NCBI RefSeq assembly: GCF_001570985.1
Contig: NZ_BCSS01000010.1
Span: 1 to 64,000, forward strand
Length of the DNA stretch: 64,000 nt
Source: Janibacter limosus NBRC 16128
GTDB lineage: Bacteria; Actinomycetota; Actinomycetes; Actinomycetales; Dermatophilaceae
Direction: 5' to 3'
The notes below the pieces were generated by a model. That model ran no database searches and was not told where the DNA came from. It saw only the letters and a program-made list of their open reading frames with translations. The translations under genes and the position numbers were made by a program. Below, one piece after another: positions 20,860-52,091 of the stretch (positions are counted from its first letter, which is position 1; each line of letters opens with the position of its first letter).

Positions 20860-21751
20860 GGCCGTACCTCGTCTCCGCCTGCCAGAAGACGACCAGACCC
20901 ACGACGGCGAGCCCGACGGCCCAGCCGGTCATGATGAGCCAGTCGGAGAGCACCACGGGCTCGCTGTTGAGCAGCGACTGCCGCACGACGGTGAGCATGA
21001 GGGCGAAGGGCTGCAACGTCAGGACCGCCTGGACGAGCTGAGGGGCCGACTCCACGTAGTGGGCCACGGGGAAGAACACGCCCGAGACGTACCGCAGCAG
21101 GCGGATGACGACCGGGATGAGGTTGGCCATGTCCTCGGAGGCGTTGACCAGCCGCGCCGCGATGAAGGCCAGGCCGAGCAGGGCGACGGCCTGGAGGATG
21201 ACCGCGACCGGGAAGAGCAGCCACTCCCAGTCGGGTCGCTCGCCGGTGGCGAGCATGAGCACGAAGAGGAGCGCGAAGGCCGGCACGGAGGCGAGGAACT
21301 CGGTGAGGGTCACCGACATCGGCAGAATGGCCCGGGGGAAGTGCAACGAGCGCACGAGGCCGATCCGGCCGGTGATCGCTCGGGCTCCCCGGGTGACGAC
21401 CGCCGACGTGAAGCCGAACATCACGACGCCGATGCTGAGGAAGCCGATGAAGTTGTCGATGCCGCCCCGGGTGCTCAGCAGCAGACCGAAGATCAGGTAG
21501 TAGCTCCCGATGAGGATCGCCGGGTTGAGCACTGCCCAGAGCTGACCGAGGTGGTTGGCCTCGTTCTTGGCGTAGGACTCGGCCGAGGACAGGGTCCACA
21601 GGAAGGGGCGGCGGCGCCACAGGTCGGCCACGTACTGCGGCAGCGGCGGTCGCTCGTTGAGCGATCGCAGGCCATGGCGGCGCGCCAGCGCCCGGGCCTC
21701 GTCGGTGGACAGCTCAGCGGGAACGGGGTGGCGCCCGGTTGCCTGAGTCAC
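20852..21751 (-). CDS. ABC-2 type polysaccharide/teichoic acid export permease (TagG/Wzm-like)
   Basis: A 299-residue ABC-2 permease, partner of the downstream ATPase. After a cytoplasmic N-terminus (about 70 residues, with NEANHLGQLWAVLNP, the typical start of the ABC-2 domain), six hydrophobic segments follow, among them ILIGSYYLIFGLLL, FIGFLSIGVVMFGFTSAVV, FLASVPAFALLFVLML and VGLAVVGLVVFW. RSLHFPRAILP is the conserved cytoplasmic loop. GTG 21751 has GGAG five bases upstream. A good -10 (TATGAT) lies at 21859-21854, in the region divergent from the TagF-like gene. Confidence 0.88.
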   Translation of the reverse strand: MTQATGRHPVPAELSTDEARALARRHGLRSLNERPPLPQYVADLWRRRPFLWTLSSAESYAKNEANHLGQLWAVLNPAILIGSYYLIFGLLLSTRGGIDNFIGFLSIGVVMFGFTSAVVTRGARAITGRIGLVRSLHFPRAILPMSVTLTEFLASVPAFALLFVLMLATGERPDWEWLLFPVAVILQAVALLGLAFIAARLVNASEDMANLIPVVIRLLRYVSGVFFPVAHYVESAPQLVQAVLTLQPFALMLTVVRQSLLNSEPVVLSDWLIMTGWAVGLAVVGLVVFWQAETRYGRG

Positions 21752-21919: not shown

Positions 21920-21953
21920 GGCCAGCCGCGACTGCGGACGAGAGGTGGACACG

Positions 21954-24491
21954 ATGAGGGTGCAGCGAGCCATGGAGCTGGTGCGCCGCGGCCGCAGTCT
22001 TCCCCGCTCCGAGTGGGTCGCCCACTGGCGTGCCCGCCCCGTCGAGCGCGACACGGTGCTCTACGAGGCGACCTTCGGGGCCGGGCTGCTCGACAGCCCG
22101 CTGGCGATCTTCCGCCACCTCGTAGCGGCGCCGGACCTCGCCCACCTGCGACACGTGTGGGTCGTCGCCGACGCAGGGAGGCGGCAGCGGGCGCGCGAGC
22201 ACCTGTCCGCCCTCGGGCTGGACGAGTCGCGGGTGCGGCTCGTCGGGTACCGCACCCCCGGGTACTTCCGCCACCTCGCCACGGCCGGCTACCTGGTCAA
22301 CAACTCCACCTTCCCCGCGGAGTTCGGCAAGAGGCCGGGACAGACCTACGTCAACACCTGGCACGGGACCCCGCTCAAGGCGATGGGCTACGACGTCCCG
22401 GGGGGCGCGCTCGGCGCGGCCAACATCATCCGCAACTTCCTCGCCGCGGACCACCTGCTCTCCACCGGCCCGTACATGACCGACACGATGTACCGGCAGG
22501 CCTACCGGCTCGAGGGCATCGCGACCGGGTCGGTGCTCGAGGTGGGCATGCCCCGCACGGACGTGCAGGTCGGCACCACCGAGGCCGAGCGCGAGAGCAT
22601 CCGGGAGCGGCTGAGGGTCGCTGGCGTCGACGTGGACCCACGACGTCGCGTCGTGCTCGTCGCGCCGACGTGGCGTGGGGAGGCCTTCGCTGATCCTCGC
22701 CTCGACGCCGAGGACCTGATCGAGCTCGTCGGTCTCCTGCAGGCGAGCCTGGGCGACCGGTGGCAGGTTCTCGTCAAGGCCCACCCCGTGGTGCACGGGC
22801 AGGCACGGTCCATGCCCGGCCTCGAGGGGCGCCTCGTCCCGGCAGAGCTCCCGGTCAACGACGTCCTGGCGGTCATCGACCACCTGGTCACCGACTACTC
22901 CAGCGTCCTCTTCGACGCGCTCGTCGACCCACGGCTGCCGATCACCTTCCACGTGCCCGATCGCGAGCTCTACGAGCGGACCCGGCCGCTCTACCTGCCC
23001 GCGGGGGACCTGCCCGGCCGGGTCTGCACGACGGCGCAGGAGACGGCGGCGGACGTGTCCGCCGGAGGGTCGCGAGCCGACGTGCGTAGCGACTGGGCCG
23101 CGCGGTACGCCCCCTTCGACGACGGGGGCGCCAGCCAGCGTGTGGTCGACGTGGTCTGGCGCGGAGCCTCGCCGTCGGTCGGCCGGAGCGTCCGGCTGGA
23201 GGAGCGGACGGTGGACGGGCGCCGGGTCCCGCGCCTGCTGGTCCACGGCGGCTCCCTCCAGCGCAACGGCGTCACCTCCTCCCTCATCGCGCTCCTCGGG
23301 CAGATCGACCTGGACCGGACCGACGTGTCGGTCGCGTGGGGACCGGCCCGCGACGCCGACCCCGACGCCTTCGCGGCGGCTGTCGACGACCGGGTACGTC
23401 TCCTGCCCCGCGTGGGTTCGCCCAACGGTTCCCAGCGGGTCCTGGGTCTGCGACACCTGCTCGAGCGGCTCGGCGCCGACCACCCGGCCGTGCCGGTGGG
23501 GCCGCTCGTGCGCCTCCTGCGGGAGGAGTGGGTGCGCTGCTTCGGGCAGACGAGGTTCGACCACGTCATCGACTTCGGCGGGTACTCGCCGTACTGGGCG
23601 CTCCTGATGTCGCGGGGGGTCGCGCTGGGTGAGGTGCGCACCCACTCGATGTGGCTGCACAACGACCTTGCGGCCGAGGTCGCCAGCACCGTCGGGCAGG
23701 GGAGCGCGCGAGCTCGCCACCTCGAGCAGGTCTTCAGCCTGTACCGCCGGTACGACCGGCTGGTCTCGGTGTCGCCCTCCCTGTCCCGCGTCAACGAGCA
23801 GTCCCTGGCCGGCCACGCGGGCAGCGCGCAGTTCCGCAGCGCCCGCAATGTCATCGACGTGCAGCGCGTGCGATCGCTGGCCGGGGTGCCCCTCGACGAC
23901 CTCGGGCTGGCCGATGAGGTCGTGGCCGCGCTTCGGGACGAGGCGACGGTGACCTTCGTGACCGCGGGGCGCCTGACCCCGACCAAGAACCAGGCCCGGC
24001 TCGTGCGCGCCACCGCGGCCGTGCGTGCCGCGGGGCACGACGTCGCCGTCATCATCATGGGCTCTGGTCCGCTGGAGGCCGACCTGCGAGCCCTCGTGGC
24101 CGAGCTGGGTCTCGAGGGCTCGGTCCACCTCACCGGGCAGGTGGCCAACCCCTTCCCCATCATCGCGGCAGCCGACTGCTTCGTCCTGACGAGCGAGCAC
24201 GAAGGCCTGCCCATGGTGATCCTCGAGGCGCTCGCCCTGACCACCCCGGTCCTGACGACCGCCTTCTCCTCGGTCGAGGGCGTGCTGCCCCCCGGGTGCG
24301 GCGTCGTCGTCGACAGGGACGATGCCGCGGTCGCCCGTGCCATGATGGATCTTGTCGCCCGACGCCCGGACTTCAGCACTCTGGACGTCGACGCCTACAA
24401 CGCCGCCGCGCTCCAGGAGTTCGCGGCCGCGATCGGGCTGGGTGACAGCCCACGCACACCAGACGGACCACGACGCACAGGACACACGTGA
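21954..24491 (+). CDS. Fusion of CDP-glycerol glycerophosphotransferase (TagF-like) and GT4 glycosyltransferase
   Basis: An 845-residue two-domain enzyme. Residues 30-400 resemble CDP-glycerol:polyglycerophosphate transferase: NTWHGTPLKAMG near 134-145 carries the catalytic His, VEVGMPRTD-type and VLVAPTWRGEAF follow, and LVTDYSSVLFDAL near 312-324 is the CDP-glycerol site. Residues 420-840 are a GT4 glycosyltransferase, with LLVHGGSLQRNGVTSSL, FVTAGRLTPTKNQARLV near 668 and the nucleotide-sugar motif SEHEGLPMVILEAL near 747. It could add glycerol phosphate and a sugar to the same growing teichoic chain. ATG 21954 is preferred over GTG 21945 because AGAGGTGG lies just upstream. The stop overlaps the next start (GTGA). 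Confidence 0.85.
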   Translation: MRVQRAMELVRRGRSLPRSEWVAHWRARPVERDTVLYEATFGAGLLDSPLAIFRHLVAAPDLAHLRHVWVVADAGRRQRAREHLSALGLDESRVRLVGYRTPGYFRHLATAGYLVNNSTFPAEFGKRPGQTYVNTWHGTPLKAMGYDVPGGALGAANIIRNFLAADHLLSTGPYMTDTMYRQAYRLEGIATGSVLEVGMPRTDVQVGTTEAERESIRERLRVAGVDVDPRRRVVLVAPTWRGEAFADPRLDAEDLIELVGLLQASLGDRWQVLVKAHPVVHGQARSMPGLEGRLVPAELPVNDVLAVIDHLVTDYSSVLFDALVDPRLPITFHVPDRELYERTRPLYLPAGDLPGRVCTTAQETAADVSAGGSRADVRSDWAARYAPFDDGGASQRVVDVVWRGASPSVGRSVRLEERTVDGRRVPRLLVHGGSLQRNGVTSSLIALLGQIDLDRTDVSVAWGPARDADPDAFAAAVDDRVRLLPRVGSPNGSQRVLGLRHLLERLGADHPAVPVGPLVRLLREEWVRCFGQTRFDHVIDFGGYSPYWALLMSRGVALGEVRTHSMWLHNDLAAEVASTVGQGSARARHLEQVFSLYRRYDRLVSVSPSLSRVNEQSLAGHAGSAQFRSARNVIDVQRVRSLAGVPLDDLGLADEVVAALRDEATVTFVTAGRLTPTKNQARLVRATAAVRAAGHDVAVIIMGSGPLEADLRALVAELGLEGSVHLTGQVANPFPIIAAADCFVLTSEHEGLPMVILEALALTTPVLTTAFSSVEGVLPPGCGVVVDRDDAAVARAMMDLVARRPDFSTLDVDAYNAAALQEFAAAIGLGDSPRTPDGPRRTGHT

Positions 24492-29898: not shown

Positions 29899-32800
29899 TC
29901 ACCCCTGGTCGTGCGCCTCCGGCGGGGCGAGGACGGAGTCCACGACACGGGCGGCGGCGTGACCGTCGTCGTGCGGCGCGAACCGCGCGATGAAGGCATC
30001 GATGAGCGAGCGGTCTGTGCCGCCGGGGGCGAGGCTGGTGCGCAGGGCCGTGTACAGCTCGTCCTCGGTCGTGGTGATGGGCCCGGGCACCTCGCTCGGG
30101 TAGTCGAGGTAGAAGCCGCGCAGCTGGTCGCGGTACTTGTCGAGGTCGTACGCGTGGAAGACCATGGGACGCTCGAGAAGCGCGAAGTCGAAGAAGACGG
30201 ACGAGTAGTCGGTGACCAGGACGTCGCTGATGAGGTAGAGCTCTTGGATGTCCGGGTACTTCGACACGTCGACGACCCGGTGCCGCAGGTGCTTGGGCAC
30301 GACCAGCTTGTCGGCGATGAGGACGTGCATGCGCAGGAGCAGCACGACGTCGTCACCCATCTCCTGCGCGAAGCGCTCCAGGTCGAAGGGCAGCTCGAAG
30401 GAGAACCCGCGCCGCCCCTTGGAGTCGTCGCGGAAGGTGGGGGCGTACAGGACGATCCGCTTGCCCTCGGGCAGCTGCAGCCGCTGCATCACCTGCTCGA
30501 CGAGGGTGGAGCTGTCCGGCGCGCAGAGGATGTCGTTGCGCGGATAACCGACCTCGAGGACATCGCCGTCGTACTGGAACGCAGACCGGAAGGCCTGCGT
30601 CGCGTACGGGCTCGGCGACAGCAGGGTGGTCCACTGGGCCACCGCGTTGGTGACGCGATCGACATAGCCCTCGTCACGACCCACGACCTCGTCGAGGTCG
30701 TGGAGCATGCGCTTGAGCGGCGTGCCGTGCCACGTCTGGAGATAGACGCCGTCGCGGCGACGGCGGATGTAGTGGGGGAAGTTCTGGTTGTTGACCCAGT
30801 ACCGCGAGCGTCCGAGGTGCCAGAAGTACGCCGGTGACAGCCGCTTGACGACGGTGAGGTTGGGCTCCCACACCGGGATCGACTTGTCGTAGACCCACAC
30901 CTTGTGACGAGGGTCCTCGCGGCGCACGAGCTCCTCGTAGATGTAGCGGGGGCTGTCGCTGTACTGACGACCAATGCCGCTCTCGAAGAGGATGGCCTCC
31001 CGGGCCGGCAGCAGCCGGGCGAGGGCGAAGAGCCGCCGCATCACCGGGAAGTACTGCTGGCTGCGGCGAGCGCGCTGCAGGACGAGCTGGGGGAGCTCGG
31101 CACCCGTGACCGCGCCCACGAACGAGCGGTCGCGCCGCGCGCCGCGGACCGCGTCGATGATCCGCTCGCTGTTGTCGCGATCACGGTGGGTGAGGAAGCG
31201 TGCGGCCCGGGCCGCGTACCTCGGCTCGATCGTTCCCCCACGCGCGAGGGTGTCGTCCAGCAGGTCGAGGGCACGGTCGCGGTCGTGGGCGATGGGCCCG
31301 GGCAGCTCGTTGCCGAGATCGAGGTGGCTCCCCCAGCGGCCCAGGAAGCGCATGACGTCGAACTGGAAGTAGATGACGGGCTTGTCGAGGAAGGAGAAGT
31401 CGAACCCGGGACTCGAGTAGTCGGTGATCATGACCTCGCTCTGCTTGAGCAGGTCCTGGACATCGACATCTCCCTGGTGGACCACCGTGACGCCCGGGGC
31501 GTGGAAGTGGTGGCTGAACTGCTGCATGTTGGGGTGCAGGCAGAAGACGATGCTGGCGTCGTGCCGTGCCAGGAGGGCCGACAGCCGTGGGTCCGTGAGG
31601 AGACCGTGCCACTGCTCGAAGTACTCGGTCTGTGTGAAGGCATCCGGGTCCTGCAACCAGTCCCGCCAGGTCGGCAGCACGAGGATCTGCCCCTTGACCG
31701 GGGCGATGGACCCGTCGAAGAGGGTGTCGAAACGGGCCAGGCCCGTCACCGCGACCTCGTCGGGCTGGTAACCGAAGTCCTGGACGATGTACTCCTTCTC
31801 GCGCTCGGAGGAGACGAGGAAGAGGTCGGTCTCGAAGGAGGTGACCCGCTTGCCGTAGTTGAGGGCCATCCACTTGGTCCCCATGACGCCGTGCTGGAGG
31901 AAGACCTTGGGGGCCTTCATCTTGCGGGCGAAGCGCGGGGTGCGGGCTGGGTAGAGGAAGTTGGGGTGGTGGGTGCCCACGAGACGGTCCGCGCGCAGGC
32001 AGGTCTCGATGTGCTCCAAGGACTTGAAGTCGAGGACGTGGTCGAGCCCCTCGAGGTTGGCCCGCTCCGGGGAGTCCTCCTCGATGACGTAGTACGCGTC
32101 GATCTCGGGATGGTGCGTGCGCAGGTGGCGGAAGAGGTGCAGGCCGTTGTCCTGGGCCTTGTACGGGCGCTCGCCGAGCAGCCAGACCGGCTTGGAGCCG
32201 GGACGCAGCCGGTGCAGCGACAAGGACCCGGGCCGCATGAGGCCGCGCAGCCGCTTGTGGGCGTCGGTGGGGAAGAGCTCCAGGTGCAGCGAGGGAAACT
32301 TCGCCTTGAAGGTGAAGTAGGGCGTGATGGCCAAGGTGGTGTCGCCCGACGCCACCCAGCCGTCGTTGGTCCCCTTGCGCACGAGGTACGGGGTGCGCCC
32401 GACCCGGCCGCGCACCACTTGGCCATCGGTCGTCGTCGCCTGGATCCACAGGTCGCCGATCGTGTCCTTGCCGATCCCGTCCACCAGGTCACGGAGGAAG
32501 TCGTGCTCCGTGGAGAACTCGTAGAAGTGGCCGCCGAAGGTGCGGACCGAGCGCATGGGGTCCGTGGTGATCCGCGCCGGGCTGCTCGACTGGAAGGCCC
32601 CGTCCCGGCCGACGAGCTGCAGCTCGGCGCCGGTGAGGACGGTGTGCCGGGACGCGAGCGCGCCGGCGAGCACGAGACGCCCGTCCTCGATGCGCAGGTG
32701 GGAGACCTCGACGCGCAGGTTGGGGCTGATCTCCTGGTCGATGACCAGGGCCAGGTGGCCGTTGCGGTTGACGTACGGCAGCACGGACTGCCCCGCCGAG

Positions 32801-33297
32801 TTGGTCAGGGGCGCGAAGACCGGCTCGGCGGTACGCTGGAAACGACCGAGCGGGACCCGGTAGCTGAGGACCTCGTCCTCCTGAACGACCTCGGTGGCGT
32901 ACCGCGGCGGACGCTCACGGTCCTCCGTCACCGAGATCCAGACGGAGGTCTTGGCGCCCTGCTCGGGCTCCTCGTCCGGGTCGCCCGGATCGGGCAGGAC
33001 CTCCGGCGCGACGATGTCCAGGTCGAAGCTCGTGCGGTGACGGACGGCCGCCTCACCCAGGACCGTCGTCTGCTCGGACTGCCAGGAGCCGAGGCGGATC
33101 CACTCGTCGGCGATGAGGACGAAGACCTCGTGGAGGTGCAGCGACGGCCCGGTGAGGGCCTCGACGCTCATCGTGCTGCCGGTCTGCTGCATGTCCAGGT
33201 GGATGCGCGAGTACGGCCCGACGGTCGGCGGCCGGGACCGGCGTCGTTCGCGGCGCAGGAGCAGGGCCTTGTGGGCGAGGAGGGCGGGGACTGGCAT
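29899..33297 (-). CDS. Large teichoic acid synthase with two TagF-like glycerophosphotransferase domains
   Basis: A 1132-residue protein. Residues 1-330 are beta-rich accessory sequence including LPYVNRNGHLALV. A first CDP-glycerol glycerophosphotransferase domain (about 340-720) has VFLQHGVMGTKWM, ILVLPTWRDWL, LHPNMQQFSHHF and MITDYSSPGFDFSF. A second (about 760-1120) has YLQTWHGTPLKRMLHD, VLYAPTFRDDSKG, LLRMHVLIAD and VLVTDYSSVFFDFAL. Both keep the catalytic His and the TDYSS CDP-glycerol site, so both may be active, for example as primase and polymerase or for two acceptor linkages. ATG 33297 is used; a TTG at 33306 overlapping the previous stop is the alternative, and neither has a strong ribosome-binding site. 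It follows the Stealth gene directly. Confidence 0.88.
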   Translation of the reverse strand: MPVPALLAHKALLLRRERRRSRPPTVGPYSRIHLDMQQTGSTMSVEALTGPSLHLHEVFVLIADEWIRLGSWQSEQTTVLGEAAVRHRTSFDLDIVAPEVLPDPGDPDEEPEQGAKTSVWISVTEDRERPPRYATEVVQEDEVLSYRVPLGRFQRTAEPVFAPLTNSAGQSVLPYVNRNGHLALVIDQEISPNLRVEVSHLRIEDGRLVLAGALASRHTVLTGAELQLVGRDGAFQSSSPARITTDPMRSVRTFGGHFYEFSTEHDFLRDLVDGIGKDTIGDLWIQATTTDGQVVRGRVGRTPYLVRKGTNDGWVASGDTTLAITPYFTFKAKFPSLHLELFPTDAHKRLRGLMRPGSLSLHRLRPGSKPVWLLGERPYKAQDNGLHLFRHLRTHHPEIDAYYVIEEDSPERANLEGLDHVLDFKSLEHIETCLRADRLVGTHHPNFLYPARTPRFARKMKAPKVFLQHGVMGTKWMALNYGKRVTSFETDLFLVSSEREKEYIVQDFGYQPDEVAVTGLARFDTLFDGSIAPVKGQILVLPTWRDWLQDPDAFTQTEYFEQWHGLLTDPRLSALLARHDASIVFCLHPNMQQFSHHFHAPGVTVVHQGDVDVQDLLKQSEVMITDYSSPGFDFSFLDKPVIYFQFDVMRFLGRWGSHLDLGNELPGPIAHDRDRALDLLDDTLARGGTIEPRYAARAARFLTHRDRDNSERIIDAVRGARRDRSFVGAVTGAELPQLVLQRARRSQQYFPVMRRLFALARLLPAREAILFESGIGRQYSDSPRYIYEELVRREDPRHKVWVYDKSIPVWEPNLTVVKRLSPAYFWHLGRSRYWVNNQNFPHYIRRRRDGVYLQTWHGTPLKRMLHDLDEVVGRDEGYVDRVTNAVAQWTTLLSPSPYATQAFRSAFQYDGDVLEVGYPRNDILCAPDSSTLVEQVMQRLQLPEGKRIVLYAPTFRDDSKGRRGFSFELPFDLERFAQEMGDDVVLLLRMHVLIADKLVVPKHLRHRVVDVSKYPDIQELYLISDVLVTDYSSVFFDFALLERPMVFHAYDLDKYRDQLRGFYLDYPSEVPGPITTTEDELYTALRTSLAPGGTDRSLIDAFIARFAPHDDGHAAARVVDSVLAPPEAHDQG

Positions 33298-33302
33298 GCG
33301 GC

Positions 33303-34919
33303 TCAACGTTCGTAGGGGGAGGGGAAGGGCAGGAGCGCGGCGACGATCCGGTCGACGCGTTGCTGGGCGAGGGCGGGGTCGTCGGTGTGGGTCTCGTTCA
33401 GGCAGTAGGAGTCGAGGTCGGAGCGCACGAGCATCCGGTCGATGCGCCGGTCGCTGCCCGGGTCGCCGATGTCAATGAACTCGTACCGGGTGTCGGCCGG
33501 GACGGCACGGCCGGTGGCAGCCGCCCAGAAGGCCTGCAGCTGCGCGGCGAGGGAGACGTCGCTGGGGTGTCGGAAGCGGGACGCGCTCGTGCGCTCCACG
33601 ACCTCGGGGCAGGCGGCGTCGATCTCCTCGAGGACGTCCCTGCGCTGCGGGTGCGGCGTGTGTCGGGGCCGCGTCATCGGACGTCGGCCAAATCTGTCCT
33701 CGATGATCCGACGACCGTTCTTGAAGGCAGCGACCACCGGGAGGTCTGCAGCATCGGCCGCGCCATCCTCGACGGGGATCATGGACGGAAAGTACCTCAG
33801 CAGCCCGCTGGCGGTGAAGAACTGCTCCGGCCGCAGAGGACGCGCGAGGAAGACGTCGTCGTTGAGGTACAGGTAGTGCTGCGCCAGACCCGGGATGCGG
33901 TGGAGGTTGGCCTCGATCGCGTGCGAGTTGAAGGTCGGCAGATGCGTGCGGTCGGGGAAGATCTCCGCGTGGTGCACGAGGTGGATCTGCGGATGGTCGG
34001 TGTCCAGCCACGCCGGCACCTGGCCGTTGGTGACGATGTGGATCCTGCGGACCCAGCCGGCGTAGGCGGCGACGGACCGCAGCGAGTACCGCAGCTCCTC
34101 GCGACTGGTGAAGCGCGACGAGGACCGGGCGCTCGTGTGCGCCGCCGCGTCGTCGTCACCCCGGCGCGCGGCGGCGAAGTCCGCCTGCCAGTCGGGGTCG
34201 TCCGCGTCCACCCACGTGTAGACGATGTCGATGGGGAAGGTCACCTGCTCCAGCGGTGCACAGGCCCCCGGAGCGGGGGCGCCGGTGAGTGCCTCGGGCG
34301 GCAGGAAGCGAGCGTGCGAGTTGGTGCGGGGGGCCACCAGGCTGCCGGTCGGCAGGAGCGGCCCGTCCGGCGACATGCGGGGCGTGCTGACCTGCTCCCA
34401 CACCTCGAGGTCGACGCCCAGATCGGCCGTCGGCAGCAGCCGGCCGGCTCGGGAGACCTGGGCGGAGAAGATCCGGACCACATCGCCCGGTCGGACGGAG
34501 GCCAGGCGGGAGAGCGGTCGCGCCGGCGATCGCCGGGTCCCGTGGATGGGGGCGACGTGCAGCTCGGGTCGCGCCGCCAGCGGCGACAAGGCGTCTGGGA
34601 CGCGGTGGGCGTCCGCGGCCGAGACGATGACTCGGTGCGGTTGCTCTTGCGGGCTGTCGAGCCCGAGGTGGTCGATGCCGGCGCGGGCGAGCGCGGCGGC
34701 GACCTCGTCACGACACCGGTCCCGCAGGGCCCAGGCGTCGAACCGCTCGACGATGCGGGCGGTGAGCAGGGACCGGCCGCTCCGCACCCGGACGGTGTCA
34801 CCGTCTGACCTGCCGTCGAGGGAGACGGTGCGGGTCCCGTCACGCAACGACCGGACGTGGTTGCGAGCTGTGGCGCTGAAGTCCGCGAGCACGTCCTGGA
34901 TCCCTTCGTCGGCGGTCAT
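33303..34919 (-). CDS. Stealth-family sugar-phosphate transferase (capsule/phosphoglycan type)
   Basis: About 538 residues. The C-terminal 310 residues carry the Stealth conserved regions: CR1 FPIDIVYTWVDADDPDW near 226-242, CR2 SRFTSREELRYSLRSV through LPTFNSHAIEANL, HYLYLNDDVFLARPL and RHPSDVSLAAQ, ending in NETHTDD. Stealth proteins transfer hexose-1-phosphate or related units to make phosphodiester-linked glycans. The N-terminal 220 residues form an additional region of no recognised family. The start is set at ATG 34919 (MTADEGI); an in-frame GTG at 34946 is possible. The product suggests that the locus makes a mixed sugar-phosphate/glycerol-phosphate polymer. Confidence 0.85.
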   Translation of the reverse strand: MTADEGIQDVLADFSATARNHVRSLRDGTRTVSLDGRSDGDTVRVRSGRSLLTARIVERFDAWALRDRCRDEVAAALARAGIDHLGLDSPQEQPHRVIVSAADAHRVPDALSPLAARPELHVAPIHGTRRSPARPLSRLASVRPGDVVRIFSAQVSRAGRLLPTADLGVDLEVWEQVSTPRMSPDGPLLPTGSLVAPRTNSHARFLPPEALTGAPAPGACAPLEQVTFPIDIVYTWVDADDPDWQADFAAARRGDDDAAAHTSARSSSRFTSREELRYSLRSVAAYAGWVRRIHIVTNGQVPAWLDTDHPQIHLVHHAEIFPDRTHLPTFNSHAIEANLHRIPGLAQHYLYLNDDVFLARPLRPEQFFTASGLLRYFPSMIPVEDGAADAADLPVVAAFKNGRRIIEDRFGRRPMTRPRHTPHPQRRDVLEEIDAACPEVVERTSASRFRHPSDVSLAAQLQAFWAAATGRAVPADTRYEFIDIGDPGSDRRIDRMLVRSDLDSYCLNETHTDDPALAQQRVDRIVAALLPFPSPYER

Positions 34920-35033
34920 GCGGTCATCGGGACGATCCTCGGGCACGTGGGTGGGAGGACGTGACGTCGATTGTCGTCGAGGGCGGCCCTCCGGTCCATT
35001 CCGACACGGTGGCACACGGGCGCCCGCGCACGC

Positions 35034-36632: not shown

Positions 36633-36709
36633 TGGTGGCCAGGGGCGGGGTCGAACCGCCGACCTTCCGATTTTCAGTCGGACGCTCGTACCAACTGAGC
36701 TACCTGGCC
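36633..36709 (-). tRNA. tRNA-Phe (GAA)
   Basis: The minus strand folds into a cloverleaf: acceptor GGCCAGG, D arm AGCTCAGTTGG, anticodon loop CTGAAAA (anticodon GAA), T loop GTTCGAC in the GGCGG stem, and an encoded CCA end (36635-36633). It is the last of three tRNAs read leftward. Confidence 0.95.
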
Positions 36710-36735
36710 GAGCCGGTCCGGACTGGACCAGCGAG

Positions 36736-36809
36736 CGACCCTGACGGGACTCGAACCCGCGACCTCCGCCGTGACAGGGCGGCGCGCTAACCAACTGCGC
36801 TACAGGGCC
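36736..36809 (-). tRNA. tRNA-Asp (GTC)
   Basis: Cloverleaf on the minus strand: acceptor GGCCCTG pairing with CAGGGTC (one G-U), D arm AGCGCAGTTGGTTAGCGC, anticodon loop CTGTCAC (GTC), T loop GGGTTCGAGTCCC, discriminator G. CCA is not encoded. Confidence 0.95.
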
Positions 36810-36840
36810 TTGTGTCGTACAAGGCTTCGTGCTTCTTGCG

Positions 36841-36913
36841 TATCCCCAACGGGATTCGAACCCGTGCTACCGCCGTGAAAGGGCGGGGTCCTAGGCCGCT
36901 AGACGATGGGGAC
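36841..36913 (-). tRNA. tRNA-Glu (TTC)
   Basis: Cloverleaf on the minus strand: acceptor GTCCCCA with TGGGGAT (terminal G-U pair), anticodon loop CTTTCAC (TTC), T loop GGGTTCGAATCCC, discriminator A, no encoded CCA. It is the first gene of the Glu-Asp-Phe cluster. Confidence 0.95.
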
Positions 36914-37010: not shown

Positions 37011-37814
37011 TCACGGACGGGTTCCGTCCAGGGCGAATCGCGCGGCTGCGCGCCATCCACCGAGCTTCTCGGCGTGCCGGTTGGCGAAGGCCAGACGGAC
37101 GATCGGGGCCTTCCAGCCGAAGGCCCGGTTGAGCACCGCCGCGCGGACCCGGGCGTCGCCGGCGCCCCATCGGTGACCCGAGCTGTCGGCCGGGTGGATG
37201 CCGTAGACGTGGTCGATGGCGTCCGCTCGCCGCCCAGCCCGGAAGAGGTCGAAGATGAAGAGGTACTCGTCGCCGAGATAGAGATCGACGCCCGCGCCGA
37301 AGCGCTCGTCGAAGCGAACGCCTGCCGCCTTGACCTGCTCGACGTCGACGAGCATCTCGTAGGTCGCTGCGCGGGCCGCGGAGAAGCTCGTGAGCCTCTC
37401 TCGACCGCCCATGGGCCGCCGCTTGCGCACCACCCCGTCAGGGGTCGTCCCCAGGCCCAGGGCCAAGGCGGAACCCGACCTCGAGAGGTACTCGATCCCG
37501 GCCGCGACACCCTCGAGGTCGACCTGCACGTCGTCGTCGCAGAAGAGGAGGTAGCGGCGGGTGGTGGCCTCGATGACCGCGTTGCGGCTGCGGGCCACTC
37601 CTCGACCCGGGACGTCGATCAGGCGGTCCCACCCGTGGAGGGGGTGGACCCGGTCGAGCCCGCCCTGGACGGCCACGATCACCTCGACCTCGTCCGCGCC
37701 GTCCGGGATGGTGATCGCGCCGGTGCGCTCGGCCAGGCTCGACCAGCCGATGGTCAGCTGGGACAGCGCGCTGCTCGTGGAGCTGCTCATGGGGCTGGTG
37801 GTCGTCAGGCTCAT
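37011..37814 (-). CDS. GT2-like glycosyltransferase
   Basis: A 267-residue GT-A type glycosyltransferase. After a Ser/Thr-rich start, VEVIVAVQGG begins the fold, GRGVARSRNAVIEA is the conserved helix, and LLFCDDDVQVD carries the metal-binding DDD (93-95). The acceptor half contains FDERFGAGVDLYLGDEYLFIFD, with the GDEY version of the catalytic ED motif. It is the last gene of an operon with the two pyruvyltransferase-like genes; its ATG overlaps the upstream stop (ATGA). The acceptor is probably a surface glycan. Confidence 0.82.
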   Translation of the reverse strand: MSLTTTSPMSSSTSSALSQLTIGWSSLAERTGAITIPDGADEVEVIVAVQGGLDRVHPLHGWDRLIDVPGRGVARSRNAVIEATTRRYLLFCDDDVQVDLEGVAAGIEYLSRSGSALALGLGTTPDGVVRKRRPMGGRERLTSFSAARAATYEMLVDVEQVKAAGVRFDERFGAGVDLYLGDEYLFIFDLFRAGRRADAIDHVYGIHPADSSGHRWGAGDARVRAAVLNRAFGWKAPIVRLAFANRHAEKLGGWRAAARFALDGTRP

Positions 37815-39727
37815 GCGTCGTCCTCGTCGTCCTCGTCGTCATCATCGTGCAGGGAGAGGTTCTCGATCACGATGTCGATGGCCTCCGTGAGTGCGTCAGC
37901 AACCTCGTCGAGCGTGTCGTCGCCGACCCGGACGGGCGTGGTCAGGGCCCGCAGGTCGATCCCCGTGAGATCGAGCGGTAGGTGGGGGATGTCGAGGGCG
38001 ACCTCGACGCCGGCGCCCAGGGCGTAGTCCTCGACCTTGAGGGGTCCGTCGGCGCGTGCCGGGTCGAAGCCGTGGAGGCCGACGAAGCCGACGGGGATGC
38101 CGTAGCTGTGGCAGGCCACGAGCACCGGCAGGGAGCTCGTGACCACGGCGTCGTGGTCGGTGAGCGAGGCGAGGAAGGCGCGGACCTCGTCCGGGTGGCT
38201 GAAGAGCAGCGTCATGTCGTCGACGTCGTCGGGAGTGACGAGCTGAGCACTCGCGTGGAGGGGGTGCCGGACAAGAGCGACGCGGCCATTGCCCTCGCCC
38301 CGCTCGAGCGGGACGAGACGCCTCAGGAGCAGGCCGGGGTCCCCCCAGCGATCGATGGTCGGGCCGCCCTGTCGCGCGAGGCGGTCGGCGGAGATGGGGC
38401 CGCGGAGCGAGATGTAGGTCGCGTCGGGTGTCATCGGGTGGGCGGTGGAGCTGATGCCCGTCCCGACGACGACGGACGACGGGGTGATCAGGCGCCCGAG
38501 GGAGCCGAGGCCGACGAGGTGGGGCTCGGTGGGAGACGACGTCGGCGAGACATAGCTGATGCCGCGCTGCGCGTGCGTGCCCACCACGAGCGGGCTCATC
38601 CACTCACCGGCATTGCCGGGGAGGGGCTTGGGCCACCACGCGAGCGGGATCGGCTCGCTCCCCGGGTGGGCCGTCAGGTGCGCGGCGAACGACGTCGCGG
38701 CCGCCTGCGCCCCGGTGACGGCCTCGCTCCGCCGCGCCTCGGGGCCGACCCGCTCCATGATCGTCGCGATCATCGCGCGGTCCCCCCGCTGCCCGGCCGC
38801 CAGCAGCCACACAGGGGCCTTCGAGGCCGGGATCGTCTGCTGCAGCTGTTCGCTCGAGGGCCGCGCGCGGGCGGCCTTGGCGAGCGTGGTGTTGGCGCGG
38901 GCCGAGGCGCGGGCGAAGCGCATCATCGAGGAGGAGAGGTTGCCGACCTGGCCGAAGGCAATGCGGCCGGCGAGGAGGAAGACGACGGCGTCGCCGACCG
39001 AGACCTCACCGTGCACGGTGCGCTGCAGCACGCACACGAGGGTGACGACCAGGCCGAGGCTGCCGATGATGCCGCCGAGCTCGGAGGTGCGGATCCGCGT
39101 GCCGATGCGCTCTCCGACCGAGATGGTCCCCGGATGGTTGCCCATGGCCACGTAGTCGCGCTGGAGCCCCAGGTGCCGGGAGAAGAGCCAGACGATGATC
39201 GCCAGGACGGTGGCGGCCGAGATGGCGTTGACCAGGCCGGTCACCGGGTCGAGGACCGCGATGAGGGCCGCGAGGGCGATGATCTGGACGACGCCGACCA
39301 TCTGGTTGGACAGCTCGAGCGCCATCGCCCAGTCCCAGCTCTCCTGGGCGCGGTTGCGATCGGCCAAGGAGGTCTCGAAGCGGCGGCGGAAGACCGCGAT
39401 CCGGGCGATCTTCACGACGTGGTGGACGACCCGGGCCCCTGCGAAGAGGACGAAGAAGAGCGCACCGCTGCGCACGATCGCGCCCGGGTCGCGCTGGAGG
39501 GTCTGCGCGCCCGTCGTGATGAGGTGGGTGAACATCCGGATGACGAGCATCTCCATCACGGGGACGCTGGCCATAACGAGGGCGAGGCCGGCGGCCTCCC
39601 CCTTCGCTCCCGGGGTGGGGAAGAGGCGCTGGAAGACCTCTCGCAGGTGGCGCCACGTGCTCTCGTGAGCGGGGGGCGACGTCAGGGACGTCGACCCGGC
39701 CGTGGCGACCACCTGGTCACTCGGCAC
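37811..39727 (-). CDS. ABC-exporter-type membrane domain fused to a pyruvyltransferase-like domain, without ATPase
   Basis: A 638-residue protein of unusual build. Residues 40-270 have six hydrophobic segments with the layout of an ABC exporter membrane domain: LALVMASVPVMEMLVIRMF, ALFFVLFAGARVVHHVV, IIALAALIAVL, AATVLAIIVWLF, GSLGLVVTLVCVLQ, then GEVSVGDAVVFLLAGRIAFG, the usual run before the ATPase. No Walker motifs follow. Residues 335-610 are a polysaccharide pyruvyltransferase-like domain (LAWWPKPLPGNAGEWMSPLV, SSVVVGTGIS, SLRGPISADRL, ACHSYGIPVGFVGL) close to that of the gene upstream. It ends in a run of Asp/Glu. GTG 39727 with GGAGGA upstream is preferred over GTG 39754; both overlap the upstream gene. 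It may pyruvylate a glycan at the membrane; this is inference. Confidence 0.75.
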   Translation of the reverse strand: MPSDQVVATAGSTSLTSPPAHESTWRHLREVFQRLFPTPGAKGEAAGLALVMASVPVMEMLVIRMFTHLITTGAQTLQRDPGAIVRSGALFFVLFAGARVVHHVVKIARIAVFRRRFETSLADRNRAQESWDWAMALELSNQMVGVVQIIALAALIAVLDPVTGLVNAISAATVLAIIVWLFSRHLGLQRDYVAMGNHPGTISVGERIGTRIRTSELGGIIGSLGLVVTLVCVLQRTVHGEVSVGDAVVFLLAGRIAFGQVGNLSSSMMRFARASARANTTLAKAARARPSSEQLQQTIPASKAPVWLLAAGQRGDRAMIATIMERVGPEARRSEAVTGAQAAATSFAAHLTAHPGSEPIPLAWWPKPLPGNAGEWMSPLVVGTHAQRGISYVSPTSSPTEPHLVGLGSLGRLITPSSVVVGTGISSTAHPMTPDATYISLRGPISADRLARQGGPTIDRWGDPGLLLRRLVPLERGEGNGRVALVRHPLHASAQLVTPDDVDDMTLLFSHPDEVRAFLASLTDHDAVVTSSLPVLVACHSYGIPVGFVGLHGFDPARADGPLKVEDYALGAGVEVALDIPHLPLDLTGIDLRALTTPVRVGDDTLDEVADALTEAIDIVIENLSLHDDDDEDDEDDA

Positions 39728-41555
39728 GGCGAAGGTACTCCTCCACGCCGCCACGCATGGCCTGCTCCACCTCGTCGAGCTTGTCGTCGCTCAGGCGGAC
39801 CTGCGACACGAGGTCCTCGAGCGAGATCTTGGTCAGGTCGAAGCGGATGAGCTGCGGGTCGTAGTCCCTGTCGAGCCCTGCACCGCGGCTGTAGTCGGCG
39901 TACTTGATGCCTGTGCCGGGGACGGCGTTCTGGAGGCCCTCGAAGTTGATCAGCCCACACGGGATGCCGTAGCTGTGGCAGGCGATCATCACGTGCATCG
40001 CGCTGGTGAGGACGTAGTCGGAGCCGACGAGCTGCTCGAGGAACCCCTGGATCCTCGACGGGTGCGACATCCGCACGTCGAGCTCGTCGACGTGGTCCGG
40101 CAGCACGAGCGGGACATTGGCGTGGGTGAAGTGACGCACCAGCGTCACCCGGCCGGTCGTCTCACCGCGCTCGAGAGGGACGGCCCGACGCAGCAGCACG
40201 CCCGGGTCGCCGAAGGACTCGACATCGGGTCCGCCGGAGTCGCGCAGCGACTGGGCCGTGATCGGACCACGCACCGAGTGGTACGACGCGCTGCCCTCGA
40301 GCAGGTGCTCGGTCGTGCTGATGCCCGTCCCCACGACGATCGAGGAGGGCTTGATGAAGCGGCCCACCGACCCGATGCCGAAGAGGTGCGGGTCGCTCGT
40401 CTTGGCGGTCGTCGGGACGTAGCGCACCGGGTGGGGCGTCTCGTGTGCGAGCACGAGCGGGCTGAGCCAGTCGCCGAAGTTGCCGGGGAAGGGCTTGACC
40501 CACCACGCGAGCGTCACTGGTGTGCCCGGGCGCTCGGGCGAGGCGTAGTGCGCGAAGGAGTTGGCGACCTCCTTGGCAGCGATCTCCGGCTTGCCGGGGA
40601 CGATGCGGTCCTCGATCTTGCCGTAGAAGTTCTCGACGGCGGCCGCGTCACCCTTCTGGCCGGACGAGATCATCCAGTTGACGAGCTTGGCTTGGGTGCT
40701 CGGCCCGGTGCTCCCGGGGCCGGCGGTGTGAGCGGTGAGGCGGTGGGTCATACCGGTCCGGTCGGCGATGCGGCGCAGGCGGTGCGCGGCCTCGGTCGGC
40801 AGGGCGCGCTCGACGCGCTTGGCGGCCTGGAGGGCCACGTGCTTGGCAGCGGTCCGTCCGGACATGGCGCCGATGAGGGCACCGCCGACAGCACCGGCGG
40901 TGCCGCCGATCGCGGAGTGCTGCTCGACCTTGAGCTTGAACTCGGCGACATTGCCGCTCGCGCCGAAGGAGAAGAAGGGGGTGATGCCGCTGTCGGGCTG
41001 CGCCTTGGAGAGCATCGCCGGAGACGGGATGATCTGGAAGGTCATGTTGGCGCCGTTGGCGCGCCACGACTCCTCGAAGAAGTAGTCGTCGGTGGCCTTG
41101 ATGTCCATCTCGCGCTCGAAGGTCGCGGCGTCGGCCATGAACTTGCGGGCAGCAGGCGTGGTGTTGATCCCGAAGAAGCAGGGCTCCCAGAAGCGGGTCT
41201 TGGACAGGTAGCCGATTGACGAGGGGGTCCCGAAGCCGCGCTGGAAGCCGATGAGGTCGGCGGTCGTCGAGGCGATGAACTCGGGGAAGGCCAGGAGCGA
41301 GCAGTCGACGTCGATCCAGTAGACGCGCTTGTCCGGGTTGGCCAGACACACACCGTTGAGGAAGCCGATCTTGCGCCGGGTCAGGTCGGCCCAGTCGTCG
41401 TCGGGTCCCTTGTGGATCTCCTCGAGCTCCAGCTGTACACCCAGCCCCGCGACATTGCCGCGCAGCGTGTCGGCGTGCGCTCGGTAGTAGTCGTCGTCCG
41501 TGTAGAAGGAGCAGACGACGATGTCGTCACGCACAGTCAGGGTGTCTGCTGTCAT
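39717..41555 (-). CDS. GT-A domain fused to a pyruvyltransferase-like domain
   Basis: A 612-residue protein. Residues 10-215 resemble a nucleotide-diphospho-sugar transferase: DIVVCSFYTDDDYYRAHADT, KIGFLNGVCL and YWIDVDCSLLAF with D-x-D at 82-84. Residues 215-330 hold a Gly/Ala-rich stretch (GGTAGAVGGALIGAMSG) that could be a hydrophobic loop. Residues 340-590 are a pyruvyltransferase-like domain: LAWWVKPFPGNFGDWLSPLV, FGIGSVGRFI, SSIVVGTGIS, SVRGPITAQSL, ACHSYGIPCGLINFEGL. This domain is clearly paralogous to the one in the next gene. The start at 41555 (MTADTLTV) has GAGG/AAGAG upstream. It is the first gene of the three-gene operon reading left. Confidence 0.78.
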   Translation of the reverse strand: MTADTLTVRDDIVVCSFYTDDDYYRAHADTLRGNVAGLGVQLELEEIHKGPDDDWADLTRRKIGFLNGVCLANPDKRVYWIDVDCSLLAFPEFIASTTADLIGFQRGFGTPSSIGYLSKTRFWEPCFFGINTTPAARKFMADAATFEREMDIKATDDYFFEESWRANGANMTFQIIPSPAMLSKAQPDSGITPFFSFGASGNVAEFKLKVEQHSAIGGTAGAVGGALIGAMSGRTAAKHVALQAAKRVERALPTEAAHRLRRIADRTGMTHRLTAHTAGPGSTGPSTQAKLVNWMISSGQKGDAAAVENFYGKIEDRIVPGKPEIAAKEVANSFAHYASPERPGTPVTLAWWVKPFPGNFGDWLSPLVLAHETPHPVRYVPTTAKTSDPHLFGIGSVGRFIKPSSIVVGTGISTTEHLLEGSASYHSVRGPITAQSLRDSGGPDVESFGDPGVLLRRAVPLERGETTGRVTLVRHFTHANVPLVLPDHVDELDVRMSHPSRIQGFLEQLVGSDYVLTSAMHVMIACHSYGIPCGLINFEGLQNAVPGTGIKYADYSRGAGLDRDYDPQLIRFDLTKISLEDLVSQVRLSDDKLDEVEQAMRGGVEEYLRRAE

Positions 41556-41744
41556 CGGGAACTCTTGGCCTCTTTCGTGCACAGTGCTCGGTCAGGGTGT
41601 GCTCGTGCGGGGGGCAGGCGACCATCGCTCCCGTATCACTGGATTGTGCCCAGCGCAGCGGCGGACCGGTGGTTGCCCCGCCGAAGGTTCCCTCACCAAA
41701 GTGTCTGCGGCGTGTCGTCCAGGTGGCCAGCCGGTGGGACGAGC
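41556..41744. other. Intergenic region with possible terminator and promoter
   Basis: An imperfect hairpin (CGGCGG 41659-41664 with CCGCCG 41678-41683) may end the PHP transcript. The operon of pyruvyltransferase-like genes presumably starts here, but no -10/-35 pair is convincing. Confidence 0.35.
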
Positions 41745-48138: not shown

Positions 48139-48213
48139 GGGCCTCTAGCTCAATGGTAGAGCTGCGGACTTTTAATCCGTAGGTTGTGGGTTCGAGTCCC
48201 ACGGGGCCCACCA
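48139..48213 (+). tRNA. tRNA-Lys (TTT)
   Basis: Cloverleaf on the plus strand: acceptor GGGCCTC with GGGGCCC (one U-G), D arm GCTCAATGGTAGAGC, anticodon loop CTTTTAA (TTT), T loop GTGGGTTCGAGTCCCAC, discriminator A, encoded CCA (48211-48213). Confidence 0.95.
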
Positions 48214-50235: not shown

Positions 50236-51294
50236 GTGTCCCACAACCGCCCCGGCGGCCGTCGCGTCCCCGCGACCCCGCTGGTCGTCACGCTCGTCGG
50301 CCTCGCCCTCGTGAGCGCCGTCGCGTCGCTCGCCCTCGGCTCCGAGCCGCTCGCCGTGTCGGGGGTGATCGACGTCCTGCGCGCCCGCCTCACCGGCGCC
50401 CCCGGGCCCGACCCCACCTACGACACGATCGTCTGGGAGCTGCGTGCGCCCCGCGTCATCATGGCGATGGTCGTGGGAGCGGGTCTGGCCATGGCGGGTG
50501 CCTGCATGCAGACCCTCGTGCGCAACCCGCTCGCTGACCCCTATCTCCTGGGTGTCTCCTCCGGGGCGGGCGTCGGCGCGACCCTGGTCATCGTGCTCGG
50601 GGTGCTGAGCGGCTTCGGGATCTGGGCGCTCTCGCTCGGCGCGCTCGCCGGAGCGCTCGCCGCGACCGGCCTCGTCTTCGGCGTCTCCATGTGGCAGGGC
50701 GGGATCACCCCCCTTCGTCTCGTCCTGACGGGCGTGGTGATGTCCGCCGCCTTCTCGTCGGTCTCGAGCTTCCTCGTCTTCTTCAGCGCCGACCCGCGGG
50801 CGACGCAGTCGGTGCTCTTCTGGCTGCTGGGCAGCCTCTCGGGCTCCGTCTGGGACCAGATCCTGCCGTCCGTGATCGTCGTCGTCGTCGCGACGGGGGT
50901 GCTCATGGCGCTGCACGCCTGGCTCGATGCGCTGGCCGCCGGCGCGGACGTCGCGGCAACGCTCGGGGTGCCGGTCAAGGGGCTGCGGATCGGGCTCTTC
51001 GTCCTCACGTCCGTGCTCGTCGGCGTGCTCGTCGCCGTCTCGGGTGGGATCGGCTTCGTCGGCCTCGTCGTGCCGCACCTCGCCCGGATCCTCGTCGGTG
51101 CGCTCCACCGCAATGTCCTGCCCGTCGCCGCCGTGGGCGGTGCGCTCCTCATGCTCTGGGTCGACGTCGCCGCCCGGGTCGTCGTGCGACCGCAGGAGAT
51201 CCCGCTGAGCGTCGTCACCGGGATCGTCGGGGCCCCGATCTTCCTCCTGCTCCTCGGGCGACGGCACTACACCTACTCCGGAGGCGACGCATGA
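50236..51294 (+). CDS. btuC: Cobalamin-type ABC transporter permease (FecCD/BtuC family)
   Basis: A 352-residue permease with ten predicted helices. RAPRVIMAMVVGAGLAMAGA, QTLVRNPLADPYLLGVSSGAG, SGGIGFVGLVVPHLAR (the coupling-helix region) and RPQEIPLSVVTGIVGAPIF are diagnostic of the BtuC/FecCD family. The family also carries iron siderophores; the cobalamin assignment rests on the riboswitch in its leader. GTG 50236 has GGAGA 6 bases upstream. The stop overlaps the ATPase ATG (ATGA). Confidence 0.9.
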   Translation: MSHNRPGGRRVPATPLVVTLVGLALVSAVASLALGSEPLAVSGVIDVLRARLTGAPGPDPTYDTIVWELRAPRVIMAMVVGAGLAMAGACMQTLVRNPLADPYLLGVSSGAGVGATLVIVLGVLSGFGIWALSLGALAGALAATGLVFGVSMWQGGITPLRLVLTGVVMSAAFSSVSSFLVFFSADPRATQSVLFWLLGSLSGSVWDQILPSVIVVVVATGVLMALHAWLDALAAGADVAATLGVPVKGLRIGLFVLTSVLVGVLVAVSGGIGFVGLVVPHLARILVGALHRNVLPVAAVGGALLMLWVDVAARVVVRPQEIPLSVVTGIVGAPIFLLLLGRRHYTYSGGDA

Positions 51295-52091
51295 GCCACC
51301 TCACCAGCCGTGGCCTGACCTGCTCGATCGACGGCCGTCCGATCGTCTCCGATGTCGACCTCGAGATCGAGCGTGGCGAGATGGTCGCGCTCGTCGGTCG
51401 CAATGGCAGCGGCAAGTCCACGCTGATCCGCTCCCTGACGGGCCTGCGAGCGCCGGCCCGTGGCTCCGTGCACGTCGACGGCACGGACCTCGCCGCGCTC
51501 ACACCGCGCCAGCGTGCAGGTCTCATGGCCCACGTCGGGCAGGAGGACGGGCCACCCGAGGACCTCCTGGTCGGGGAGATGGTCGCCATGGGACGCATCC
51601 CTCACCGACCCCCGTGGTCCGTCGGGGCGAAGGGAGAGCGCCGTCTCGTCCTCGATGCGCTGGCCGCCGTCGGCATGGCGGCGCATGTCGACCACCCCTG
51701 CCAGCACCTGTCGGGCGGCGAGCGCCGTCGGGTGATGCTCGCCCGGGGTCTCGCCCAGGGCACCGACCTGCTCGTCCTCGACGAGCCGACCAACCACCTG
51801 GACATCCACCACCAGGTCCAGCTCCTCGACACCGTCCGCGGGCTGGGCCGCACGGTCCTCGCCGCCGTCCACGACCTGTCCCTGGCGGCGACGCACTTCG
51901 ACCGGGTGGCCGTCCTCCACGAGGGCCGGCTGCACGCGGTCGGCACGCCGACCGAGGTGCTCACCCCGCAGACCATCGGGCTGGTCTTCGGCGTCGAGGC
52001 CGCCCAGCTCACCGACCCGGCCACCGGCCGGGTCCACCTGGTCCTCGGAGCCGGAGCGTCCGTCCCCGCCCCACGAAAGGTCCCGGCATGA
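51291..52091 (+). CDS. btuD: Cobalamin-type ABC transporter ATPase (BtuD/FecE family)
   Basis: A 266-residue ABC ATPase energising the importer. Walker A ALVGRNGSGKSTLIR, Q-loop in AHVGQEDG, signature HLSGGERRRVMLARGLAQG, Walker B LLVLDEPTNHLD and switch His in AVHDLSLAATH are all intact. An ATG overlapping the btuC stop sets the start; the open frame extends well upstream inside btuC but is not coding. It ends overlapping the binding protein's ATG. Confidence 0.92.
   Translation: MSHLTSRGLTCSIDGRPIVSDVDLEIERGEMVALVGRNGSGKSTLIRSLTGLRAPARGSVHVDGTDLAALTPRQRAGLMAHVGQEDGPPEDLLVGEMVAMGRIPHRPPWSVGAKGERRLVLDALAAVGMAAHVDHPCQHLSGGERRRVMLARGLAQGTDLLVLDEPTNHLDIHHQVQLLDTVRGLGRTVLAAVHDLSLAATHFDRVAVLHEGRLHAVGTPTEVLTPQTIGLVFGVEAAQLTDPATGRVHLVLGAGASVPAPRKVPA

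Follow-up and report, generated by a model that had tools for sequence, protein, structure and literature searches.

A putative ABC-exporter-derived membrane subunit associated with surface-glycan enzymes in Janibacter limosus

In type-IV ATP-binding cassette (ABC) exporters, the coupling helices are carried by the loops between transmembrane helices (TM) 2 and 3 and between TM4 and TM5. The best-described ABC exporter membrane domain to function with no ATPase is, to our knowledge, that of SbmA. In Gram-positive bacteria, multi-component transmembrane glycosylation systems (CsbB/GtcA) are membrane systems of several parts that glycosylate cell-wall polymers and use a family-2 glycosyltransferase (GT2). 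Two coupling helices are described per ATPase domain (PMC11267003), and the SbmA-type (SLiPT) transporters are presented as exporter membrane domains that have lost the ATPase as well as the coupling helices and are run by protons (PMC13316013). In this study, we analysed 64,000 nucleotides (nt) from Janibacter limosus NBRC 16128 (NZ_BCSS01000010.1, positions 1 to 64,000; referred to as the window), in which a fusion gene at 37811–39727 encodes an exporter-like membrane part followed by a polysaccharide pyruvyltransferase (PST)-like domain. With moderate confidence, we read its product as a membrane subunit, ABC-derived and independent of ATP, that serves a surface-glycan enzyme complex as scaffold or flippase and carries a degenerate PST as docking domain. 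Its features and those of the two adjoining genes are as follows, with residue numbers referring to the frame of 647 amino acids (aa):

37811..39727, minus strand: fusion gene, encoding 638 aa when started at GTG 39727; the open frame reaches GTG 39754 (647 aa)
38870..39661, minus strand: ABC-exporter-like domain with six TM segments and shortened cytoplasmic loops (aa 32–295 of the 647-aa frame)
37874..38842, minus strand: fused PST-like domain, probably catalytically impaired (aa 305–627)
39738..39744, minus strand: Shine-Dalgarno-like GGAGGAG, 10 nt before GTG 39727 and within the end of the upstream gene, as read from the sequence
39717..41582, minus strand: GT-PST gene, with an N-terminal glycosyltransferase (GT)-like domain bearing a DVDC (DxD-like) motif and a C-terminal PST (PF04230)
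37011..37814, minus strand: GT2 gene (PF00535), overlapping the stop of the fusion gene by 4 nt

Exporter-type membrane domain and its docking loops

The membrane stretch of the fusion protein displayed six hydrophobic segments, with hydropathy peaks at positions 32, 70, 131, 151, 203, and 231 of the stretch. Profile-profile comparison (hhalign) of 15 family members with seven exporter membrane domains (set A6) resulted in a probability of 95.7 (E 9.4e-9, 246 columns), the reversed-profile controls for that comparison gave probabilities of 0.6, 0.8, and 0.4, and the family profile matched several exporters immediately ahead of their ATPase. This match and the hydropathy peaks bore out the six-segment, ABC-exporter-derived membrane domain that an earlier note on this DNA had proposed, and, judged by its profile, the domain of the whole family is homologous to the membrane domains of ABC exporters. 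The Pfam model PF00664, by which the earlier note had wanted the exporter link to be judged, matched neither the window protein nor any of the membrane-part members (0/15). Taken literally, this counts against exporter ancestry, but the miss says little as a test, since three of five control exporters with a clear ATPase (L028, L033, and L053) were also without PF00664 at E 0.1, with L031 remaining below the cut-off and L056 matching strongly; the exporter link stands on the profiles. All ten PF00664 matches in the genome of the window were located in frames of 606–1177 aa, the fusion gene not being one of them; starting from these ten, eight loci were tried and four passed the motif filter, giving the own-genome exporter set. 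The best NCBIfam match of the fusion protein was the NHLM ABC exporter (E 0.0072, 14.6 bits with a cut-off of 853.3), and a sequence search of the PDB with the membrane part resulted in no matches.

No ATPase domain was detected in the window fusion protein by Pfam at E up to 1, as the earlier note had observed, the sole match being PF04230, and the fusions of genomes G010, G263, and G391 were free of PF00005 at E 0.01. A second difference concerns the loops. Among 12 exporters (the seven of A6, the four of the own genome, and E. coli MsbA), helix spacings were 77–82 residues for TM2-3, 84–89 for TM4-5, 22–24 for TM3-4, and 27 for TM5-6, while the family, represented by 47 rows (40 distinct genomes and seven repeats), revealed 54–57, 49–53, 23, and 27, respectively; the TM1-2 spacing overlapped (34–38 in the family, 32–44 in the exporters). 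Compared to type-IV exporters (NHLM-like, MsbA), the family thus shares the six-TM order, the TM3-4 and TM5-6 spacings, and the profile match over the whole domain, but has no ATPase domain, and in 47/47 rows its two docking loops on the cytoplasmic side fall short of the exporter loops by about 24 and 35 residues. The same shortening was obtained when hydropathy peaks were computed separately for each set with no cross-alignment. Judged by loop length, the loop ends bearing the coupling helices appear to be lost in the family. By the distribution of positive charges, both termini and the two shortened loops face the cytoplasm (N-in/C-in), and therefore the fused domain would be cytosolic. Concerning single residues, Glu68, Arg220, and Glu225 were conserved in all 47 rows and Arg264 in 45 of them.

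Because both docking loops are shortened in every row, a half transporter that borrows the ATPase of another protein, as suggested in the earlier note, is highly improbable, even though exporter homology favours such an arrangement and the N-in/C-in topology would be compatible with it. We also searched the window and 14 fetched loci of 12–19 kb for nearby ATPases, using a one-sequence query at E 1e-6. Those found in the window and in four loci have other roles or partners, with the exception of L043, where the gene next to the ATPase, cut by the end of the locus, showed no Pfam match. Locus L045 encodes an ABC-F protein and L048 an ABC-2 system together with its permease, and a complete exporter-like ABC transporter (L042:11764-13590, 608 aa, PF00005) lies divergently beside the cassette in genome G372. 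The ATPase at 19078–20859 of the window (minus strand) is TagH-like (NCBIfam TagH model, E 2e-50, below cut-off), carries a cell-wall-binding domain (PF04122, CWB2) after its ATPase domain, and has its own ABC-2 permease, the gene of which (20852–21751) it overlaps. Another ATPase frame (50538–52088) adjoins a FecCD permease gene, the two (50236–52088, plus strand) being organized as an iron-siderophore-type importer.

An ATP-independent flippase or secondary transporter, in which a lipid-linked glycan supplied by GT-PST and GT2 would be moved across the membrane by a proton or substrate gradient, is rather unlikely. The SbmA-type transporters provide a precedent of exporter domains minus ATPase and coupling helices, and the family shows both losses, the second one by loop length; furthermore, charged residues in or near the helices (Glu68 and Arg264) have been kept through class-level divergence, beyond what a mere anchor would need. 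However, hhalign revealed no relation to the sequences of SbmA or YddA (probability of 0.2 each), the PDB search was empty, and fusions to PST and GT2 point first to an enzyme scaffold. The family resembles SbmA/BacA (SLiPT), as these are described in PMC13316013, in having a six-TM domain of exporter type with neither ATPase nor, judged by loop length in the family, coupling helices, but it differs in four respects: it has no detectable sequence relation; by length and hydropathy, it seems to be devoid of the extra TM0 helices; a conserved N-terminal LF segment appears to take the place of the exporter elbow helix; and it is linked to glycan enzymes, with fusions to PST or GT2 domains. PF05992 was not among the Pfam matches of the 15 members at E 5. 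The missing sequence link to SbmA and YddA speaks for a separate loss in this family without amounting to proof, since single sequences make weak profiles.

Integrity of the reading frame and family distribution

The fusion gene is also present in G010, a genome of the same genus (NZ_LMRZ01000006, apparently the same genome), with 91% identity. For this one genome pair, window and G010, the ratio of nonsynonymous to synonymous substitution rates (dN/dS, no significance test) was 0.286 over the whole fusion gene, with the membrane part at 0.159 and the fused PST at 0.318; the neighbouring GT-PST gave 0.124 (PST part 0.120) and GT2 0.121. A frameshift or assembly error, which the earlier note had seen as a possible source of the missing ATPase, was rejected: the frame is intact in G010 under purifying selection (dN/dS 0.29), and relatives without an ATPase occur in 40 genomes. 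The likely start of the gene is GTG 39727 rather than GTG 39754, because GGAGGAG is found 10 nt upstream of the former and because aa 1–33 of the long frame have a dN/dS of about 1.1 (from only 33 codons), compared to 0.16 for the membrane part.

A profile search identified the gene for the membrane part (TM gene) in 6 of 186 genomes of the taxonomic family. Clear members, defined by E below 1e-20, occurred in 5/396 genomes of the order, 8/394 of the class, and 2/396 of the phylum, and members at E 1e-10 in 31/141 genomes of one small-genome family and 2/47 of another. These genome sets overlap, and the fetched loci represent 40 distinct genomes, with the TM genome G1287, from which no locus was obtained, standing outside the 40. 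Weak matches (E above 1e-5; 7/12 order-set, 1/9 class-set, and 4/6 phylum-set genomes) were not counted as members; among the 12 loci dropped, seven of which make up the exporter set A6, eight revealed Walker A and signature motifs, L053 revealed PF00005, and L041, L054, and L055 were without a demonstrated ATPase.

Throughout the 40 fetched genomes, the ATPase-less membrane domain mostly forms a protein by itself, about 260 aa long. Of the 15 genomes examined in detail, 11 encode it as a lone protein, three as a TM-PST fusion (window, G010, and G263), and one as a TM-GT2 fusion (G391). The lone relatives have no room for an ATPase after the TM part or a total length of 257–293 aa (one of 328 aa, among the 15); for G067, belonging to another genus, the membrane part is a lone protein of 256 aa sited between GT-PST and a GT2. 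Based on these sequences, the window protein can be regarded as one of the fused forms within a broader actinobacterial family of membrane subunits. The build for which the earlier note knew of no described protein was seen, as the TM-PST order, in three genomes, and the protein is no isolated oddity. We found no name for this TM family, and the titles and abstract openings screened yielded nothing on an ABC membrane domain joined to a pyruvyltransferase or on an ATPase-less exporter with glycosyltransferases.

The fused pyruvyltransferase-like domain

Residues 305–627 of the fusion protein showed 42–43% identity to the PST half of the neighbouring GT-PST (39717–41582; E 2.5e-86), and via this neighbour the domain is homologous to polysaccharide pyruvyltransferases of PF04230, such as CsaB and Pvg1p. 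The pyruvyltransferase-like C-terminus, already recognized in the earlier note, is thus real by sequence comparison (43% identity), though the PF04230 search itself stayed below the cut-off of 25.3 bits for the window fusion (E 0.058, 13.7 bits) and gave no match at E 0.01 for the fusions of G010 and G263. Altogether, the fused domains missed the PF04230 cut-off in 3/3 cases, while the GT-PST proteins tested passed it in 4/4, the neighbour with 35.7 bits. Searching the PDB with the PST profile A5 yielded chance matches to ribosomal L17 only.

As to the active site, the phosphoenolpyruvate (PEP)-binding histidine is reported as H308 in CsaB and H339 in Pvg1p, and of the CsaB variants described, H308A and H308R were dead while H308S and H308K retained activity (PMC10435577). 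Canonical members and Pvg1p show an RxH motif at that position, where histidine is present in 11/11 GT-PST and 12/12 canonical members and where the three fusions instead have Pro, Pro, and Gly; the register is based on the match of GT-PST to the Pfam profile, which extends to position 276 of 280, and on a weak profile alignment. Compared to the PF04230 enzymes, the fused copies also lack the GD motif, which is changed to GE or DE in 3/3, and the fused PST of the window is less constrained than the PST of its neighbour by a factor of 2.6 (dN/dS 0.318 vs. 0.120, one genome pair). These features make the fused PST likely to be catalytically inactive, and the GT-PST at 39717–41582 looks like the more intact enzyme. 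For GT-PST itself, Ala replaces the arginine of RxH, so that its chemistry is only a family-level guess.

Consequently, the membrane-anchored enzyme envisaged in the earlier note needs changing: the domain anchored looks catalytically impaired, and it is the neighbour whose enzyme looks more intact. That the fused PST works after all, as a second, membrane-anchored pyruvyltransferase with another acceptor, is improbable in view of the histidine lost and the altered GD motif in 3/3 fusions, as well as the PF04230 cut-off missed in all three. Some observations point the other way, namely purifying selection on the domain (dN/dS 0.318), a retained SLRGP arginine (putatively equivalent to CsaB R148), a lysine kept in window and G010 that matches K328 by position, and the activity reported for CsaB H308S.

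With respect to origin, the fused copies of window and G010 grouped with their own GT-PST in the PST tree (86/92, not strong) on a long branch, and the copy of G263 was placed elsewhere; a single clade of all three fused copies was not rejected (p-AU 0.0855). In the TM tree, lone relatives from genus g47 grouped with the copies of window and G010 (85/90), and G263 stood apart. Two separate TM-PST fusion events may be the simpler reading of both trees.

Glycan-enzyme cassette and proposed role

The end of the GT-PST gene and the start of the fusion gene overlap by 11 nt, and because of this overlap and the 4-nt overlap with GT2, the three genes probably form one operon. The N-terminal domain of GT-PST had no Pfam match, and its designation as a glycosyltransferase was deduced from the sequence. 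This GT domain was present in exactly the 6/186 genomes of the taxonomic family that hold the TM gene; among the 15 TM genomes examined, the GT part of GT-PST was found in 11, and in 13 a GT2 shared the locus of the TM gene. Another 32 loci were then fetched, seven of them from genomes already among the 15, and these revealed GT2 in 27, a shorter CDP-alcohol transferase in 23, a longer one in 22, and GT-PST in 7, as counted in the fetched flanks. In L046–L049, derived from small-genome Actinobacteria and without GT-PST, the TM gene lies alongside two CDP-alcohol phosphatidyltransferase genes, one with DUF5941 (assigned by Pfam for L047 and L046 and by similarity for the other loci), and L046 additionally harbours genes for a MobA-like nucleotidyltransferase and a glycerophosphodiester phosphodiesterase (GDPD) in the same stretch. 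This pairing suggests a phosphodiester-linked product. In contrast to the multi-component transmembrane glycosylation systems (the subject of PMC8035078), the cassette has a membrane partner derived from ABC exporters; no GT-C protein was detected among its genes, and its GT2 looks soluble.

Directly downstream of the cassette, genes for tRNA-Phe, tRNA-Asp, and tRNA-Glu were located at 36633–36913 (minus strand), and a tRNA-Lys gene was found at 48139–48213 (plus strand). The region 29899–35015 (minus strand) was read as a teichoic-acid or capsule cluster and encodes a protein of 1135 aa that combines two glycerophosphotransferase stretches with a TarS C-terminal domain and has a Stealth protein alongside. 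A further gene at 21945–24491 (plus strand) encodes 848 aa, in which a CDP-glycerol glycerophosphotransferase domain is joined to a group-1 glycosyltransferase. Searches of viral contigs, plasmids, and phages resulted in no match, and PADLOC gave one weak match (E 0.0045), taken as chance.

Most likely, the membrane protein serves cytosolic glycan enzymes as a subunit that provides structure and handles substrate. Under our preferred reading, that of a membrane subunit in a surface-glycan enzyme complex, the family would descend from the membrane domain of a type-IV ABC exporter that lost its ATPase and the coupling-helix ends of its loops. Together with GT-PST and GT2, we infer, it would form a complex with no ABC ATPase, in which it may tether the soluble enzymes to the membrane and would probably present or flip their lipid-linked glycan. 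For the lineage of the window, a copy of the neighbour's PST would have been added C-terminally, where the ATPase would be. The fused PST, probably no longer an active pyruvyltransferase, may then act as a docking site for the active GT-PST, with PST-PST dimerisation as a plausible mode; for the Pvg1p dimer, an interface away from the predicted active sites is described (PMC4872226).

Several results weigh against this reading. GT-PST is missing from 4/15 TM genomes and GT2 was not found in 2/15 loci, so that the complex would not be fixed. Matched against the four own-genome exporters of PF00664 type, the family profile reached a probability of only 54.3, and against MsbA alone 1.5. Structure predictions were poor (predicted local distance difference test, pLDDT, of 45.6 and 34.2), and therefore the fold rests on sequence profiles and spacing. 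Glu68 is no proof of transport, as a Glu occupies the corresponding position of the full exporter L056 (weak alignment). Finally, the PST profile comparison aligning SLP with RxH was weak (probability of 8.7), and, as CsaB H308S and H308K are active, loss of the histidine does not prove inactivity.

A further-reaching idea, which we put forward tentatively and consider doubtful, is a second, independent route of exporters away from the ATPase, in which the docking loops were precisely shortened, PST or GT2 took the place of the ATPase, and the resulting subunit would couple the making of the glycan to its flipping, so that synthesis, and not ATP hydrolysis by an ABC motor, would drive or gate the movement of the lipid-glycan. 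A second lineage with both losses, an association with glycan enzymes, and no sequence link to SbmA at the level tested would demonstrate the re-use of exporter domains outside ATP-driven transport. The family may also offer a handle on surface-glycan assembly in Actinobacteria, including the small-genome family with the gene in 31 of 141 genomes.

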